From the IMG/VR virus record IMGVR_UViG_3300036800_000057, positions 1 to 27,523 of that record: a stretch of 27,523 nucleotides of DNA. One strand, 5' to 3'. The translations under genes were made by a program, and so were the position numbers. Below, piece after piece: positions 97 through 7,686 of the stretch (position 1 is its first letter; each line of letters starts with the position of its first letter). The DNA comes from a virus. The notes below the pieces were generated by a model, which saw only the letters and a list, made by a program, of their open reading frames with translations, ran no database searches and was not told where the DNA came from.

Positions 97-288
97 CTAC
101 CGTCGGCACCGAAGTTCCCTCTCCAGCTCAGCGTTCCGCGCTTGATAGACCTCAAGCTGCCGGGTCAACGTGCCGATGCACTCCGTCATCGTTCGAAATT
201 GCGCCCAGACCCGCGTGGGGACGATGTAGAGCCGGTAGTCTATGCGCAAGGTCTTGCCGACGTCGGCGCAGCGCTGAACGTCAATCAT
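97..288 (-). CDS. small hypothetical protein, helical C-terminus
   Basis: This 63-aa protein is not recognised. Its C-terminal half (QLEVYQARNAELERELRCRR) has the charged heptad look of a short coiled coil. The ATG at 288-286 lies inside the 8-bp repeat that flanks the methyltransferase cassette. Before that insertion, this ATG probably overlapped the GcrA stop codon as TGATG. It is now preceded by the cassette end, which supplies CATG and a three-codon reading frame (M-V-R-stop) whose TGA overlaps this ATG as ATGA. It was therefore the gene downstream of GcrA in the ancestral operon and appears to remain expressible by reinitiation. It could also be a remnant, since it has no known domain. 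Confidence 0.5.
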   Translation of the reverse strand: MIDVQRCADVGKTLRIDYRLYIVPTRVWAQFRTMTECIGTLTRQLEVYQARNAELERELRCRR

Positions 289-293
289 CGGAC
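286..293 (-). repeat. 8-bp flanking repeat, downstream copy
   Basis: GTCCGATG in cargo orientation; its ATG is the start codon of the 63-aa gene. It differs from GTCTGATG at 883-890 by T to C, which removes the stop codon from this copy. Confidence 0.6.
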
Positions 294-321
294 CATGCCT
301 ATCCGGTTAGCGCCCATCAGG
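294..321 (-). repeat. downstream terminal repeat, methyltransferase cassette
   Basis: Read in cargo direction it is CCTGATGGGCGC followed by TAACCGGATAGGCATG. It matches 7420-7446 with one extra A. It contains the methyltransferase stop codon TAA, a GGATAGG purine run and a terminal ATG. Its outer 15 bp are the inverse of the upstream end. Confidence 0.8.
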
Positions 322-843
322 ACCACTTGTTGATTGGGGGAGCACGAACTTGCCCTGCCATGTTTTCCAGGCGCGACCGATCGCGCCAGACCCCGGAAAC
401 AGGTCTGCCAAGTCGTCGGTCGGACACGCTCCGACCATCTCGAAAGCCCAATGGCAGACGGCCTCCGGCTTCACTCCGGTCAGGCCGCGCTTGAGCGTGA
501 TGCTTTCCTGTATCCAGTCGCGCATCACGAGCCGCTTGCTGACGACCGGCTTGCGAGCGGCCTTCACAATGACAGGCTCCCAGGCGTAGGCGACGCTGAC
601 GTTCTTTTTGAACGCCGCAAAGCCCTTCACCCATGACATCCAGCGCGCTCCCGTGGGAGCGATTAGTGGGGCCAGCGTGGCGATGCTCGTTGGCGTCGCG
701 CTTGCGTGAAGAACCCACCCGTCGAACTCGCTTTCGAGGCGTTCGATAAGCGCGGCGTGATCGACTTCGCCGCCGAAGTCAGGGTGATCGGCGTAGAGGT
801 GCGCACACCCGATATACGGCGGATCGGCGTAAGCGATGCGCAT
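307..843 (-). CDS. small beta-class DNA methyltransferase
   Basis: The 178-aa protein has an amino-methyltransferase DPPY motif at residues 7-10 (YADPPYIG) and an AdoMet-binding FPGSG motif at 149-153 (DLFPGSGAIGRAW). Motif IV comes first and motif I last, which is the order of the beta class that includes CcrM. It would methylate N6-adenine or N4-cytosine in DNA. At 178 aa it is about half the size of CcrM and has only a short central region for target recognition, so specificity cannot be read. The stop TAA falls within the downstream cassette end. The ATG overlaps the stop of a mini-peptide encoded by the upstream end (TGATG). No restriction partner is adjacent, so self-protection or epigenetic control is more likely than restriction-modification. 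GcrA, which senses methylated promoters in host bacteria, is directly upstream. Confidence 0.85.
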   Translation of the reverse strand: MRIAYADPPYIGCAHLYADHPDFGGEVDHAALIERLESEFDGWVLHASATPTSIATLAPLIAPTGARWMSWVKGFAAFKKNVSVAYAWEPVIVKAARKPVVSKRLVMRDWIQESITLKRGLTGVKPEAVCHWAFEMVGACPTDDLADLFPGSGAIGRAWKTWQGKFVLPQSTSGPDGR

Positions 844-881
844 CAGGATTTAGTGGTCATGGGTGAAAACCGGATAGGCAT
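843..881 (-). CDS. cassette leader mini-ORF MPIRFSPMTTKS
   Basis: A 12-codon frame starts at the ATG inside the outer CATG of the cassette end and stops at TGA 845-843, which overlaps the methyltransferase ATG (TGATG). The first ten residues, MPIRFSPMTT, are identical in the leader of the other cassette at 6559-6606 because both come from the conserved terminal repeat. The GcrA stop lies a few bases upstream, so ribosomes could reinitiate here and then couple into the methyltransferase. Whether the peptide has a function of its own is unknown; coupling is the inferred role. Confidence 0.45.
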   Translation of the reverse strand: MPIRFSPMTTKS

Positions 882-882
882 G
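853..882 (-). repeat. upstream terminal repeat, methyltransferase cassette
   Basis: In cargo orientation it begins CATGCCTATCCGGTTTTCAC and ends CCATGACCAC. All 30 bp are identical to 6558-6587. It encodes MPIRFSPMTT. Confidence 0.85.
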
Positions 883-890
883 CATCAGAC
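883..890 (-). repeat. 8-bp flanking repeat, upstream copy
   Basis: GTCTGATG in cargo orientation; contains the GcrA TGA stop. The partner copy at 286-293 is GTCCGATG, with one mismatch. Confidence 0.6.
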
Positions 891-1403
891 GTACCGGCGC
901 AGCGACCTTTCAAGGTCATGAGCGCTTCCCTTGCTGGGCGCGAACGCGAGCGCCGCGTGATCGGCGCAGTAGGAACCGACCCCGCCGATTTGCCGGCCGC
1001 AAAACCCAAAGGCCGCATCCTGGGGATCACCAACGGGCCATCTGCAACCGTGCCGGCCAATCGTCTCGATCGTGCATGTGGCGGATAGGGTTTCAGGACG
1101 GAGAACGACCGCCTCCGGGACGATTGGCGGCCCAGCTGCGGCCTTGGGCGCCGGCTTCGGCTTCGCGATGAACGAACCGTTGATGATCCTGGAGCGGAGC
1201 ACGGCCACGGTTTTATGGGCCACCGCGCGGCCTGGGTTGATGACGCCCAGGCGATGCAGCTTTCCGATCACCGCGTTCCGCGAGGGAGAACTGCCGTCAG
1301 GCTGGACAAGTGATCGCGCTATCTCGGAAGCGCTGGACCCGTTCTTGTACATCTCGGCGGCGTGTTCTGCGACGCCTTCCTTTTTCCAGTCGAAGTCCGT
1401 CAT
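885..1403 (-). CDS. gcrA: GcrA-like cell-cycle regulator
   Basis: This 172-aa protein belongs to the GcrA family of alphaproteobacterial transcription regulators. The N-terminal helix-turn-helix shows the family signature (SASEIARSL, then SRNAVIGKLHRLGV at about residues 20-50). The C-terminus has the typical Cys/His region (CRWPVGDP, FGFCG, SYCADHAALAF), which contacts sigma70 RNA polymerase in the known family. In Caulobacter GcrA activates cell-cycle genes at promoters methylated by CcrM. The linker is Pro/Ala-rich. ATG at 1403 fits the family start and has GGGGGGCG upstream. An alternative ATG at 1424 overlaps the RuvC stop as ATGA and adds seven residues. The gene is in a minus-strand operon with RuvC and, through an inserted cassette, a DNA methyltransferase. 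A role in redirecting host transcription is inference. Confidence 0.88.
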   Translation of the reverse strand: MTDFDWKKEGVAEHAAEMYKNGSSASEIARSLVQPDGSSPSRNAVIGKLHRLGVINPGRAVAHKTVAVLRSRIINGSFIAKPKPAPKAAAGPPIVPEAVVLRPETLSATCTIETIGRHGCRWPVGDPQDAAFGFCGRQIGGVGSYCADHAALAFAPSKGSAHDLERSLRRYV

Positions 1404-1420
1404 CTCGCCCCCCGTTGATG

Positions 1421-1939
1421 TCATCCGCGCAGCCGCAGCGGCGGCCGGAACTTCGCGGCCAGATCGGGCTGGAGCGTCTGGAGCGCGTGCAACCAGACGC
1501 CCGCCGCATCGGCCTCGTCGTGATGCTCGATCTTCAGACCGAGAGCGCGTGCCGCGTCCATCATCTCGGGCTTCAAGGCGTTCCCCCGACCGGTCAGTGC
1601 GCGCTTTGCCTGCTGCACCGTAACCTCTCGTAAAGGAACATGGGCCTGTCGGCAAGCGAGCCCGGTGATCGCGGCTAGGCCGTGCGTGATCCGGACAGAC
1701 TGGGTGCTCGTCTTGCGCGCCACGATGGGCGCTTCGATGACGATCAGGGTAGGCTTGTAGTCCCGGATCAGGTTGCCGATCCAGCCATAGTGATTCTCGA
1801 AGAGCGGTTCCAGGAGTGCCGGGCTCTCATCGTCGCCTGCATATGGGTTGAGGCGTGAATTGACGGCGGGGAGACGCTCTCCGCCCCCCGCCGCCCAGCC
1901 TGTGCGGCTTCCGTGGTCGAGCGCGAGCAGACGGATCAG
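1421..1939 (-). CDS. ruvC: RuvC-like Holliday junction resolvase, CTG start
   Basis: Starting from CTG at 1939 the product is 172 aa. It has the four RuvC acidic residues at nearly textbook spacing: D8 (LLALDHGSRTG), E69 (LIVIEAP), and D141 and D144 (HHDEADAAG). It also has the basic TGRGNALK region before the last pair. The enzyme would resolve four-way junctions during phage recombination or packaging. The first in-frame GTG, at 1723, would remove D8 and E69, so translation must begin further upstream. There is no ATG, GTG or TTG between the upstream stop codon of this frame and D8. CTG at 1939-1937 overlaps the preceding gene's TGA as CTGA, mimicking the ATGA coupling used elsewhere in the genome. 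The start codon is the unusual part; the family call is firm. Confidence 0.82.
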   Translation of the reverse strand: MIRLLALDHGSRTGWAAGGGERLPAVNSRLNPYAGDDESPALLEPLFENHYGWIGNLIRDYKPTLIVIEAPIVARKTSTQSVRITHGLAAITGLACRQAHVPLREVTVQQAKRALTGRGNALKPEMMDAARALGLKIEHHDEADAAGVWLHALQTLQPDLAAKFRPPLRLRG

Positions 1940-5619: not shown

Positions 5620-6554
5620 CGGCTCCCTTCCTCACCGAAATATGGCAGGGCGTCGTCAGCGGACCCGGCCTCTATCTCGGCGTCCCGGCGGCCCGCTACC
5701 ATCTTGACCCGTGCCCTGAACCCAGTCTCTCCGCCTCCGTCGCCAAGATCGCCTTCAACCGCTCGCTGAAGCACGCCAAGGCCGCGCATCCCCGCCTCCG
5801 CGACCCGGACTTTCCCGAGGATGACGACACCGAAGAGCGGTCGAGGCCGTGGTACATGGAGGTGGGCAGCGCCTGCCACACGCTAGTGCTCGGGCGCGGC
5901 GAGGAACCGGTCGAGATCAAGGTCCCAAACTTCCGCAAGAAGGATGCCCAGGAGCAGCGCGACCTCGCCCGCGCTCAGGGGAAAATCCCCCTGATCACCA
6001 AGCACTACGACATCGCGCACCGGATGGCCGCCGTCGCCCGCCCGGTGGTGGAAAACCTGCTTGGGGCTGAGTTTCTCGCCGAGTCGATGGTCTGCTCGGA
6101 AGAGAAGGGTATGTGGCGCCGGTCTCTGCTGGACGCCGCAAGCTTCGATCTGCGGAACATCTGCGATCTGAAGACCACGAGCTTGGAGATGTCGCCGCAA
6201 CAGGCCGCCCGCACCGTCAACCGCGCGAACAACGCTTTTCAGGCCGCGTATTACATACGGAACGCCGACAACATCGACCCTAGCGGCATGGGCCGTCGCC
6301 GCTTCCTGTTCGCCTATATCGAGACGGAATATCCCTACGAGATGTCAGTCGTCTATCCGGACGAAGCGCTGATGACCAAGGCGGACGCCGAGGTCAATGC
6401 CGCCTGCATCATCTGGGATCGCGCCATGCGAACCGGCGTCTGGCCCGGCTACTCACGCGAGCCATTCCCTATCGCTCCGGAGAACTGGATGATGCGCCAG
6501 TTCGAGGACAGAATGCTGATGGACGACACCCTGAAGGAGGACGAGCATGGCTGA
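5616..6554 (+). CDS. PDDEXK phage exonuclease (RecE/DUF3799-like)
   Basis: Starting from TTG at 5616 the product is 312 aa and begins MTAPFLTEIWQGVVSGPGLY. Catalytic-core features are ACHTLVLG (helix A region), RRSLLDAAS (acidic residue) and NICDLKTTS (D-x-K pair), then QAAYYIRNAD (QxxxY motif). This order is typical of PDDEXK exonucleases of the YqaJ/RecE type, which resect double-stranded DNA for annealing. The gene acts with the Rad50-like ATPase and probably the RecA-fold NTPase at 7683. The TTG overlaps the mini-cistron stop. The stop TGA (6552-6554) overlapped the start of the next gene before a cassette was inserted there. Confidence 0.85.
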   Translation: MTAPFLTEIWQGVVSGPGLYLGVPAARYHLDPCPEPSLSASVAKIAFNRSLKHAKAAHPRLRDPDFPEDDDTEERSRPWYMEVGSACHTLVLGRGEEPVEIKVPNFRKKDAQEQRDLARAQGKIPLITKHYDIAHRMAAVARPVVENLLGAEFLAESMVCSEEKGMWRRSLLDAASFDLRNICDLKTTSLEMSPQQAARTVNRANNAFQAAYYIRNADNIDPSGMGRRRFLFAYIETEYPYEMSVVYPDEALMTKADAEVNAACIIWDRAMRTGVWPGYSREPFPIAPENWMMRQFEDRMLMDDTLKEDEHG

Positions 6555-6606
6555 GACCATGCCTATCCGGTTTTCACCCATGACCACCAGATTTAGGAGC
6601 GCGTGA
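6547..6606 (+). CDS. fused leader ORF driving the inserted cargo gene
   Basis: The interrupted gene's original ribosome binding site (AAGGAGG, 6534-6540) and ATG (6547) are intact. They now read through the 8-bp repeat into the cassette end as MAETMPIRFSPMTTRFRSA, stopping at TGA 6604-6606, which overlaps the PP-loop gene ATG as TGATG. Residues 5-14 equal the leader of the methyltransferase cassette. The insertion thus places cargo translation under the target gene's own start signals. The coupling role is inferred; a peptide function is unknown. Confidence 0.45.
   Translation: MAETMPIRFSPMTTRFRSA
6550..6557 (+). repeat. 8-bp target duplication, upstream copy
   Basis: GCTGAGAC, identical to 7447-7454. 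It contains the exonuclease stop codon TGA, so the upstream gene is left intact. Confidence 0.75.
6558..6587 (+). repeat. upstream terminal repeat, PP-loop cassette
   Basis: 30 bp identical to 853-882 read on the other strand; starts CATGCCTATCCGGTT and ends CCATGACCAC. It encodes MPIRFSPMTT in the leader frame. Confidence 0.85.
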
Positions 6607-7400
6607 TGCGGACGTATGTTTGCTTCAACAGCGGCGGCAACGACAGCATCGCAACGCTTGAGTTTATGGTGCTGAACGAACTGCCGAAGAAGGCCCGCGT
6701 GGTCAGTCTGTACAACAACACGGGCTGGGCTGCGGTCTATTGGGCTGACCGAATGGCCCAAGTGTCGGCGTGGTGCGCGGATCGCGGGATTGAGCACGTC
6801 GAACTGGCCACCAAAGGATTTGAGCGCCTTGTGCTGGACGGCGACGCCGGGACGATCCGCTTCCCGAACGGTATGCGGAAGACCTGCACCGAGCGCCTGA
6901 AAATCCTCCCGGCCAAGCGCTGGCTGGATAAGCGCGATCCTGAGGGAGAGGCCATCTGTGTCCTTGGCGTGCGCCGGTCGGAAAGCCAGCGCCGGGCGCA
7001 GACGCCCATCTACGAGCCGATTTCCATCAACCACGGTGGCCGGGCGCTCTGGAAGCCCCTGGCCGAGTACTCGGATGAGCAGCGCGATCAGTTGCTGGTC
7101 AGCGCTGGGTTCGAGGTGCTGCCTCACAGGTCGGACGAATGCGAGGTTTGCATTCACGCCAATCGCGCCGATCTGCGGCGGGTGAGCGATGAGGGCATTG
7201 CCCGCGTCCGTGCGCTGGAAGACGCCACCGGCAAGGTGATGTTTCGCCCCAAGGCGTACGCCGGGGCCACGGGTATCGATGAGGTCATGCGGTGGGCGCA
7301 CAGCGAGCGCGGCGCGTTTAGGCCCGCCATTCCCCTCGCTGAAGCGGTCGAAGGGGAGCCCAAGATTGAGGGGTGCGAAGATGACTTCTGCGGCCTCTAG
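6606..7400 (+). CDS. PAPS-reductase-like PP-loop ATPase
   Basis: This 264-aa protein has a PP-loop SGGNDS at residues 9-14, the ATP-pyrophosphatase motif of the PAPS reductase/DndC-like superfamily. It has a central GVRRSESQRRA segment typical of phage members and a Cys-rich C-terminal half (CEVCIHANRADL, CEDDFCGL). Such enzymes adenylate or reduce sulfur or nucleotide substrates; phage versions are widespread and mostly uncharacterised, with nucleic-acid modification a common proposal. ATG at 6606 has AGGAG in the cassette leader and overlaps the leader stop; a GTG one codon earlier is the alternative start. It is the only cargo of the 889-bp inverted-repeat cassette, as the methyltransferase is of the other. 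Confidence 0.82.
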   Translation: MRTYVCFNSGGNDSIATLEFMVLNELPKKARVVSLYNNTGWAAVYWADRMAQVSAWCADRGIEHVELATKGFERLVLDGDAGTIRFPNGMRKTCTERLKILPAKRWLDKRDPEGEAICVLGVRRSESQRRAQTPIYEPISINHGGRALWKPLAEYSDEQRDQLLVSAGFEVLPHRSDECEVCIHANRADLRRVSDEGIARVRALEDATGKVMFRPKAYAGATGIDEVMRWAHSERGAFRPAIPLAEAVEGEPKIEGCEDDFCGL

Positions 7401-7419
7401 CCAAACACCACATCTCGCC

Positions 7420-7446
7420 CCTGTGGGCGCTAACCGGATAGGCATG
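7420..7446 (+). repeat. downstream terminal repeat, PP-loop cassette
   Basis: CCTGTGGGCGC followed by TAACCGGATAGGCATG. It matches 294-321 with one missing base, and its last 15 bp are the inverse of the upstream end. Its final ATG is the present start codon of the downstream 80-aa gene. Confidence 0.82.
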
Positions 7447-7686
7447 GCTGAGACGTTCAACGTGGTCCAATTCTTCCCGGACGGAACGCACGAAGCCATC
7501 CGCGAGCGCGTCGGCGCCCAGGAGGCCGTCGAGACCGCCCGGGACTACACGCTGGCCACGCGGCCGGGCGTGATCCTCGGCGCCATCCAGCGCGTGATCA
7601 TCACCGACTCGGACGATTTCACCGTGTTCGAGTGGAAGCACGGCGAGGGCGTCACCTTCCCACCAGAATCGGCAGGCCGACAATGA
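7444..7686 (+). CDS. hypothetical phage protein, target of cassette insertion
   Basis: This 80-aa protein begins MAETFNVVQFFPDG and has beta-rich character (VVQFFPDG, RVIITDSDDFTVFEW). It is not recognised as a characterised family. The cassette at 6558-7446 entered directly after its start codon. The first four codons are duplicated upstream at 6547-6558, and the present ATG comes from the cassette end. The original AAGGAGG site now lies 900 bp upstream, so initiation must rely on GGATAGG in the cassette terminus. The stop overlaps the next start as ATGA. Confidence 0.72.
   Translation: MAETFNVVQFFPDGTHEAIRERVGAQEAVETARDYTLATRPGVILGAIQRVIITDSDDFTVFEWKHGEGVTFPPESAGRQ
7447..7454 (+). repeat. 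8-bp target duplication, downstream copy
   Basis: GCTGAGAC, encoding codons 2-4 of the downstream gene (A-E-T). Identity with 6550-6557 extends to 13 bp (GCATGGCTGAGAC) because the cassette end also terminates in GCATG. Confidence 0.75.

Follow-up and report, generated by a model that had tools for sequence, protein, structure and literature searches.

Single-gene phage cassettes bounded by IS1595-type ends

Two unrelated genes in one viral genome record, a putative DNA methyltransferase gene and a PAPS-reductase-like gene, are enclosed by nearly the same terminal sequences. The record (IMG/VR IMGVR_UViG_3300036800_000057), analyzed over its whole length of 27,523 nucleotides, is referred to below as the window. 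An earlier note, made from the sequence alone, had proposed that the two genes represent independent insertions of one element family with conserved ends and exchangeable cargo. This raises the question of which kind of element these ends belong to, and how a single gene enclosed by them could move.

Two cassettes in the window

Both cassettes are bounded by CATGCCTATCCGGTT in inverted order (Table 1). This 15-bp terminal repeat is present in four exact copies (0 mismatches) in the window, compared with a mean of 0.55 in shuffled sequence, which never reached four; allowing up to three mismatches, no further copy was found in the window, and none of the copies is unpaired. The similarity of the ends beyond the repeats was borne out in both respects claimed: the two cargo-start ends are identical at 30 of 30 positions as reverse complements, and the two cargo-stop ends, likewise compared as reverse complements, match with a one-base indel. 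The cargo genes themselves are not related to each other. They occupy opposite strands, and each is read in the direction of its own neighbors, in agreement with their earlier description as unrelated cargo in opposite operons.

Table 1. Features of the two cassettes in the window (MTase, methyltransferase; TIR, terminal inverted repeat).
Feature	Position	Strand	Remarks
MTase cassette	294-882		IS1595-type ends, single gene; cargo on - strand
Target duplication, left copy, MTase cassette	286..293		CATCGGAC; 7/8 same as 883-890
Target duplication, right copy, MTase cassette	883..890		CATCAGAC
Cargo-stop end, MTase cassette	294..321	-	TIR 294-308; matches reverse complement of 7420-7446
Cargo-start end, MTase cassette	853..882	-	TIR 868-882; reverse complement identical to 6558-6587
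Leader ORF, MTase cassette	843..881	-	MPIRFSPMTTKS, then stop; start is ATG in repeat tip; stop overlaps cargo start (TGATG)
Small DNA adenine methyltransferase-like protein, 178 aa	307..843	-	ADPPY and DLFPGSGA motifs
PAPS-reductase-like cassette	6558-7446		cargo on + strand
Target duplication, left copy, PAPS-reductase-like cassette	6550..6557		GCTGAGAC; 8/8 vs 7447-7454
Target duplication, right copy, PAPS-reductase-like cassette	7447..7454		GCTGAGAC
Cargo-start end, PAPS-reductase-like cassette	6558..6587	+	TIR 6558-6572
Cargo-stop end, PAPS-reductase-like cassette	7420..7446	+	TIR 7432-7446
Leader ORF, PAPS-reductase-like cassette	6559..6606	+	MPIRFSPMTTRFRSA, then stop; stop overlaps cargo start (TGATG)
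PAPS-reductase-like protein	6603..7400	+	PF01507, phrog_424; GTG at 6603, ATG at 6606

The proposed 8-bp target duplications are present at both cassettes, perfect around the PAPS-reductase-like cassette and identical at seven of eight positions around the methyltransferase cassette, whose flanks read GTCTGATG/GTCCGATG on the cargo strand. Downstream of the cassette, the gene at 97-288 (minus strand) has its start codon in the copy at 286-293; upstream, the gene at 885-1655 (minus strand) has its stop codon in the copy at 883-890. The lone mismatch lies in this TGA stop, which is redundant in the copy beside the downstream gene; because only the redundant stop codon is hit, both neighbors of the cassette are intact. 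The ends also contribute codons: the TAA stop of the methyltransferase comes from its cargo-stop end, and the ATG at the tip of the cargo-stop end of the other cassette can serve as the start of the downstream gene at 7444-7686. The product of the gene at 885-1655, upstream of the methyltransferase cassette, is a GcrA-family regulator (PF07750), which we take to suggest an alphaproteobacterial host.

The methyltransferase cargo has no sequence match in Pfam, PHROG, NCBIfam or PDB. Its AlphaFold model is of moderate confidence (pLDDT 76), and the Foldseek matches listed for this model, M1.HpyAVI, MTA1, METTL3, CcrM, and MboII, are N6-adenine methyltransferases, with a best E value of 2e-3 and none below 0.001. 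Motifs, predicted structure, and Foldseek matches together point to an N6-adenine methyltransferase. A scan of viral contigs gave 49 relatives of this protein at 63-87% identity, with IS1595-type ends absent around all 49, and a further relative is present in Xanthomonas phage PBR31. The conserved protein stops at about residue 169, and the final residues and stop codon of the window copy are formed by the element end. Since the 49 viral relatives lack such ends, the element has captured what is otherwise an ordinary phage gene. The PAPS-reductase-like cargo is a distant match of DndC; its one viral relative (75%) lies in a locus (L313) without IS1595-type ends.

A family that includes IS1595 insertion sequences

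Pattern scans for the ends covered viral contigs as well as bacterial and archaeal genomes, and the resulting counts are lower bounds. With an element counted if its 8-bp duplication has at most one mismatch, 565 candidate end pairs yielded at least 134 elements, where 0.2 would be expected by chance; at least 129 of them are non-redundant, and the duplication is perfect in 121 of the 134 among the matches listed. These numbers support the proposed family of conserved ends, exchangeable cargo, and 8-bp duplications. The earlier note had named further copies without any flanking duplication as an observation that would speak against the family. Such a duplication is present at most further copies; some loci with two ends have no matching duplication (e.g., L010, L014, L026, L029, and L038), and their ends may therefore be reshuffled or wrongly paired. 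A single phage carries five forward and five reverse ends.

Among the matches listed, an IS1595 transposase (PF12762 and PF12760, NF033547) is encoded by 31 of the 129 non-redundant elements. Among the bacterial elements listed, on chromosomes and plasmids, those with this transposase are 1.05-1.39 kb insertion sequences, and those without one are mostly MITEs of 110-214 bp. The 84 non-redundant phage elements listed comprise 67 without a transposase, which have a median length of 500 bp and mostly contain one small gene, and 17 of 1.6-2.25 kb, which combine a transposase with extra DNA. In a transposase tree, one branch (support 93/94) holds 12 of these 17 phage proteins. Of 21 subterminal bases in the cargo-start ends of the window cassettes, 19-20 (19 for the methyltransferase cassette) agree with the transposase-stop end of the autonomous phage elements.

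That transposase-encoding elements have the same ends and the same 8-bp duplication places the window cassettes among the non-autonomous derivatives of IS1595. They contain no transposase and are not autonomous IS1595 insertion sequences; structurally, with insertion sequence ends around a passenger gene and no transposase, they correspond to MICs. The family does not stand by itself but forms the non-autonomous branch of the IS1595 family, the autonomous members of which share its ends.

The exchangeability of the cargo is likewise supported, as the cargos of the 84 listed phage elements fall into 74 sequence clusters and one transposase-less cassette occurs at two unrelated sites (described below). 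DNA methyltransferases and PAPS-reductase-like enzymes recur as cargo in phage elements. When 20 larger cargos were scanned singly, 10 matched DNA-methyltransferase families and three matched phrog_424 (PAPS reductase), to which the window adds one each. The cargo set also includes one TnpB/OrfB-type protein, in which Pfam identifies a Cas12f1-like domain; this protein is probably the cargo of an IS1595-type cassette in L085 (1269-2372, minus strand), which matches the PHROG transposase family phrog_506.

Two observations concern bacterial carriers. In plasmids of Cupriavidus necator UYPR2.512 (L157, L177, L182, L193, L204, and L207), one such insertion sequence is present many times over, its copies being about 99-100% identical, and in the copies examined the transposase is mostly broken into two frames, of 95 and 237 codons. 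Many of the stretches fetched from two betaproteobacterial MAGs (L150, L154, L161, L164, L181, L187, L189, L190, L197, L198, L202, L220, and L222) stop no more than about 170 bp from such an end, as would be expected if a high-copy element had disrupted assembly.

Movement, insertion sites, and reading frames in the ends

One 365-bp transposase-less cassette is present in two phages (L045 and L093) in copies that are 98.1% identical. The flanks of the two copies are unrelated, their duplications are perfect but differ from each other, and the similarity ends at the repeats. This bears on whether the cassettes are decayed autonomous elements that have lost their transposase and become immobile, with incidental cargo, a reading in line with the missing IS1595 transposase in 29 of the 50 listed phage records with such ends, the window included. 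Intact ends, perfect duplications, and cargo frames that fill the element speak against such decay, and the near-identical cassette at two sites argues for recent movement; we consider this explanation improbable and rejected it. A very improbable alternative is that homologous recombination at conserved boundary sequences swaps the cargo without transposition. Conserved ends around unrelated cargo would fit this explanation, as would the end pairs without a matching duplication, but it is contradicted by the perfect 8-bp duplications of unrelated targets in 77 of the 84 phage elements listed, by the inverted arrangement of the ends, and by the two differing sites of the 365-bp cassette, which have nothing in common outside it. 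It was rejected on these grounds.

Of the two flank features that the earlier note had suggested looking for, duplications are present at most copies and empty sites were found for two elements: an uninterrupted site for the insertion sequence in L193 is present in L169, and the target of the cassette in L050 occurs without an insert in the relatives L049, L102, and L038. For the cassettes in L034 and L060, L315, L317, and L318 contain relatives of the genes that directly follow the cassettes; these three carry no cassette where the gene begins and are too distant to define an empty site at base level. No empty site was found for either window insertion, as relatives of the window flanking genes gave nothing usable.

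Both window insertions sit at a stop codon that touches or overlaps the next start. Based on simple longest-ORF gene calls, 33 of 62 phage cassettes among those listed are inserted at gene junctions, compared with 187 of 1240 points drawn at random (p 2e-11). At such junctions, the cargo runs along both neighbors 22 times and opposite to both once. The same internal polarity that had been claimed for the two insertions holds for the window pair, but not as a strict rule across the family. A promoter-like motif is present in the transposase-start end of 10 of the 17 transposase elements and at neither end of any of the 67 listed transposase-less cassettes. Cargo expression would probably occur by operon read-through.

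The cargo-start end contains a short leader ORF, MPIRFSPMTT... in the window, that starts from an ATG at the tip of the repeat. In 32 of 53 cassettes, the leader stop is at most 4 nt away from a cargo start, compared with 8 of 53 and 17 of 53 for the other frames; this comparison uses the same simple gene calls and ends that are related rather than independent, and frame 3 is also fairly high. This arrangement suggests that the leader may couple translation of the cargo to the operon. Some phages are known to have start-associated repeats ahead of their start codons, and a short ORF finishing at the cargo start, together with the position of the cassettes at gene junctions, could be expected of ordinary regulatory or start-associated gene repeats, which the earlier note had allowed for; this reading is hardly credible and was rejected, because the ends form inverted pairs with target duplications, do so also around bacterial IS1595 transposases on chromosomes and plasmids and in small MITEs, and have no unpaired copies in the window.

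Mobilization in trans and relation to known elements

The ends and duplications can be read directly from the sequences, and so can the recurrence of these ends on elements that encode a transposase, the diversity of the cargo, and the occurrence of one transposase-less cassette at two unrelated sites. On this basis, we are highly confident that these are non-autonomous mobile insertion cassettes of the IS1595 family with a transposase supplied in trans from elsewhere. Each window gene would be the passenger of a transposon that consists of two ends and one captured phage gene, without a transposase. An IS1595 element residing elsewhere, whether in another phage, in a prophage, or in the host, would provide the transposase that acts on the ends in trans, and insertion of the cassette would yield the 8-bp target duplication. 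Surviving insertions would be enriched at junctions in phage operons, where the duplication spares both neighbors and the cargo can be read with the operon. For the window cassettes, we infer mobilization in trans because no IS1595 transposase was found in either cassette or elsewhere in the record, whose 27.5 kb may be a partial sequence.

IS1595-family insertion sequences have been described (Siguier, Gagnevin and Chandler 2009, as cited in a passage of PMC3129680), and 8-bp duplications are reported for the IS1595 element ISApl4 (PMC12561309). A zinc-ribbon DDE transposase, terminal inverted repeats, and 8-bp target duplications are common to that family and the autonomous members found here; unlike it, the window cassettes have no transposase, and the autonomous phage elements reach 1.6-2.25 kb with extra cargo. 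Passenger-carrying transporter IS (tIS), MICs, and MITEs have already been described, according to passages in PMC3129680 and PMC11891212. The tIS (PMC11891212, in a passage citing Siguier 2009) similarly combine insertion sequence ends with genes not involved in transposition, among them methyltransferases in other IS families, whereas the cassettes described here usually lack a transposase and are carried by phages. The example of MICs named in PMC3129680, IS231-MIC231 (De Palmenaer et al. 2004), belongs to another IS family, and the phage cassettes differ from MICs and MITEs by their many different single phage genes, their enrichment at junctions, and the leader ORF in one end.

While tIS and MICs are known, the phage cassette population is apparently unreported in the open-access literature searched, a scope that is not proof of novelty. 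Mycobacteriophage ultra-small mobile elements (MPMEs) are similarly small, have short inverted repeats, and move among phages; they are generally described as one conserved element without exchangeable cargo. In the isolated-phage collection, the 36-base cargo-start end was unmatched and transposase matches were only distant. Hence, it may be mostly through uncultivated viruses that the cassette population has become apparent so far.

Somewhat speculatively, the phage-adapted IS1595 branch might constitute a gene-shuttling system that captures single phage genes, above all those for DNA modification (with a possible anti-restriction role), targets tight operons, and couples translation of the cargo to the upstream gene through the leader ORF.

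The dozens of other phages with such cassettes point to a route by which single genes are swapped among phages. This would be a concrete and testable route for the gain and loss of single accessory genes (morons) outside homologous recombination. Because DNA methyltransferases and PAPS-reductase-like enzymes recur as cargo, a traffic in protection from host restriction is suggested. The ends make the cassettes easy to find, which allows a catalog of their cargo, their targets, and the cognate transposases to be drawn up.
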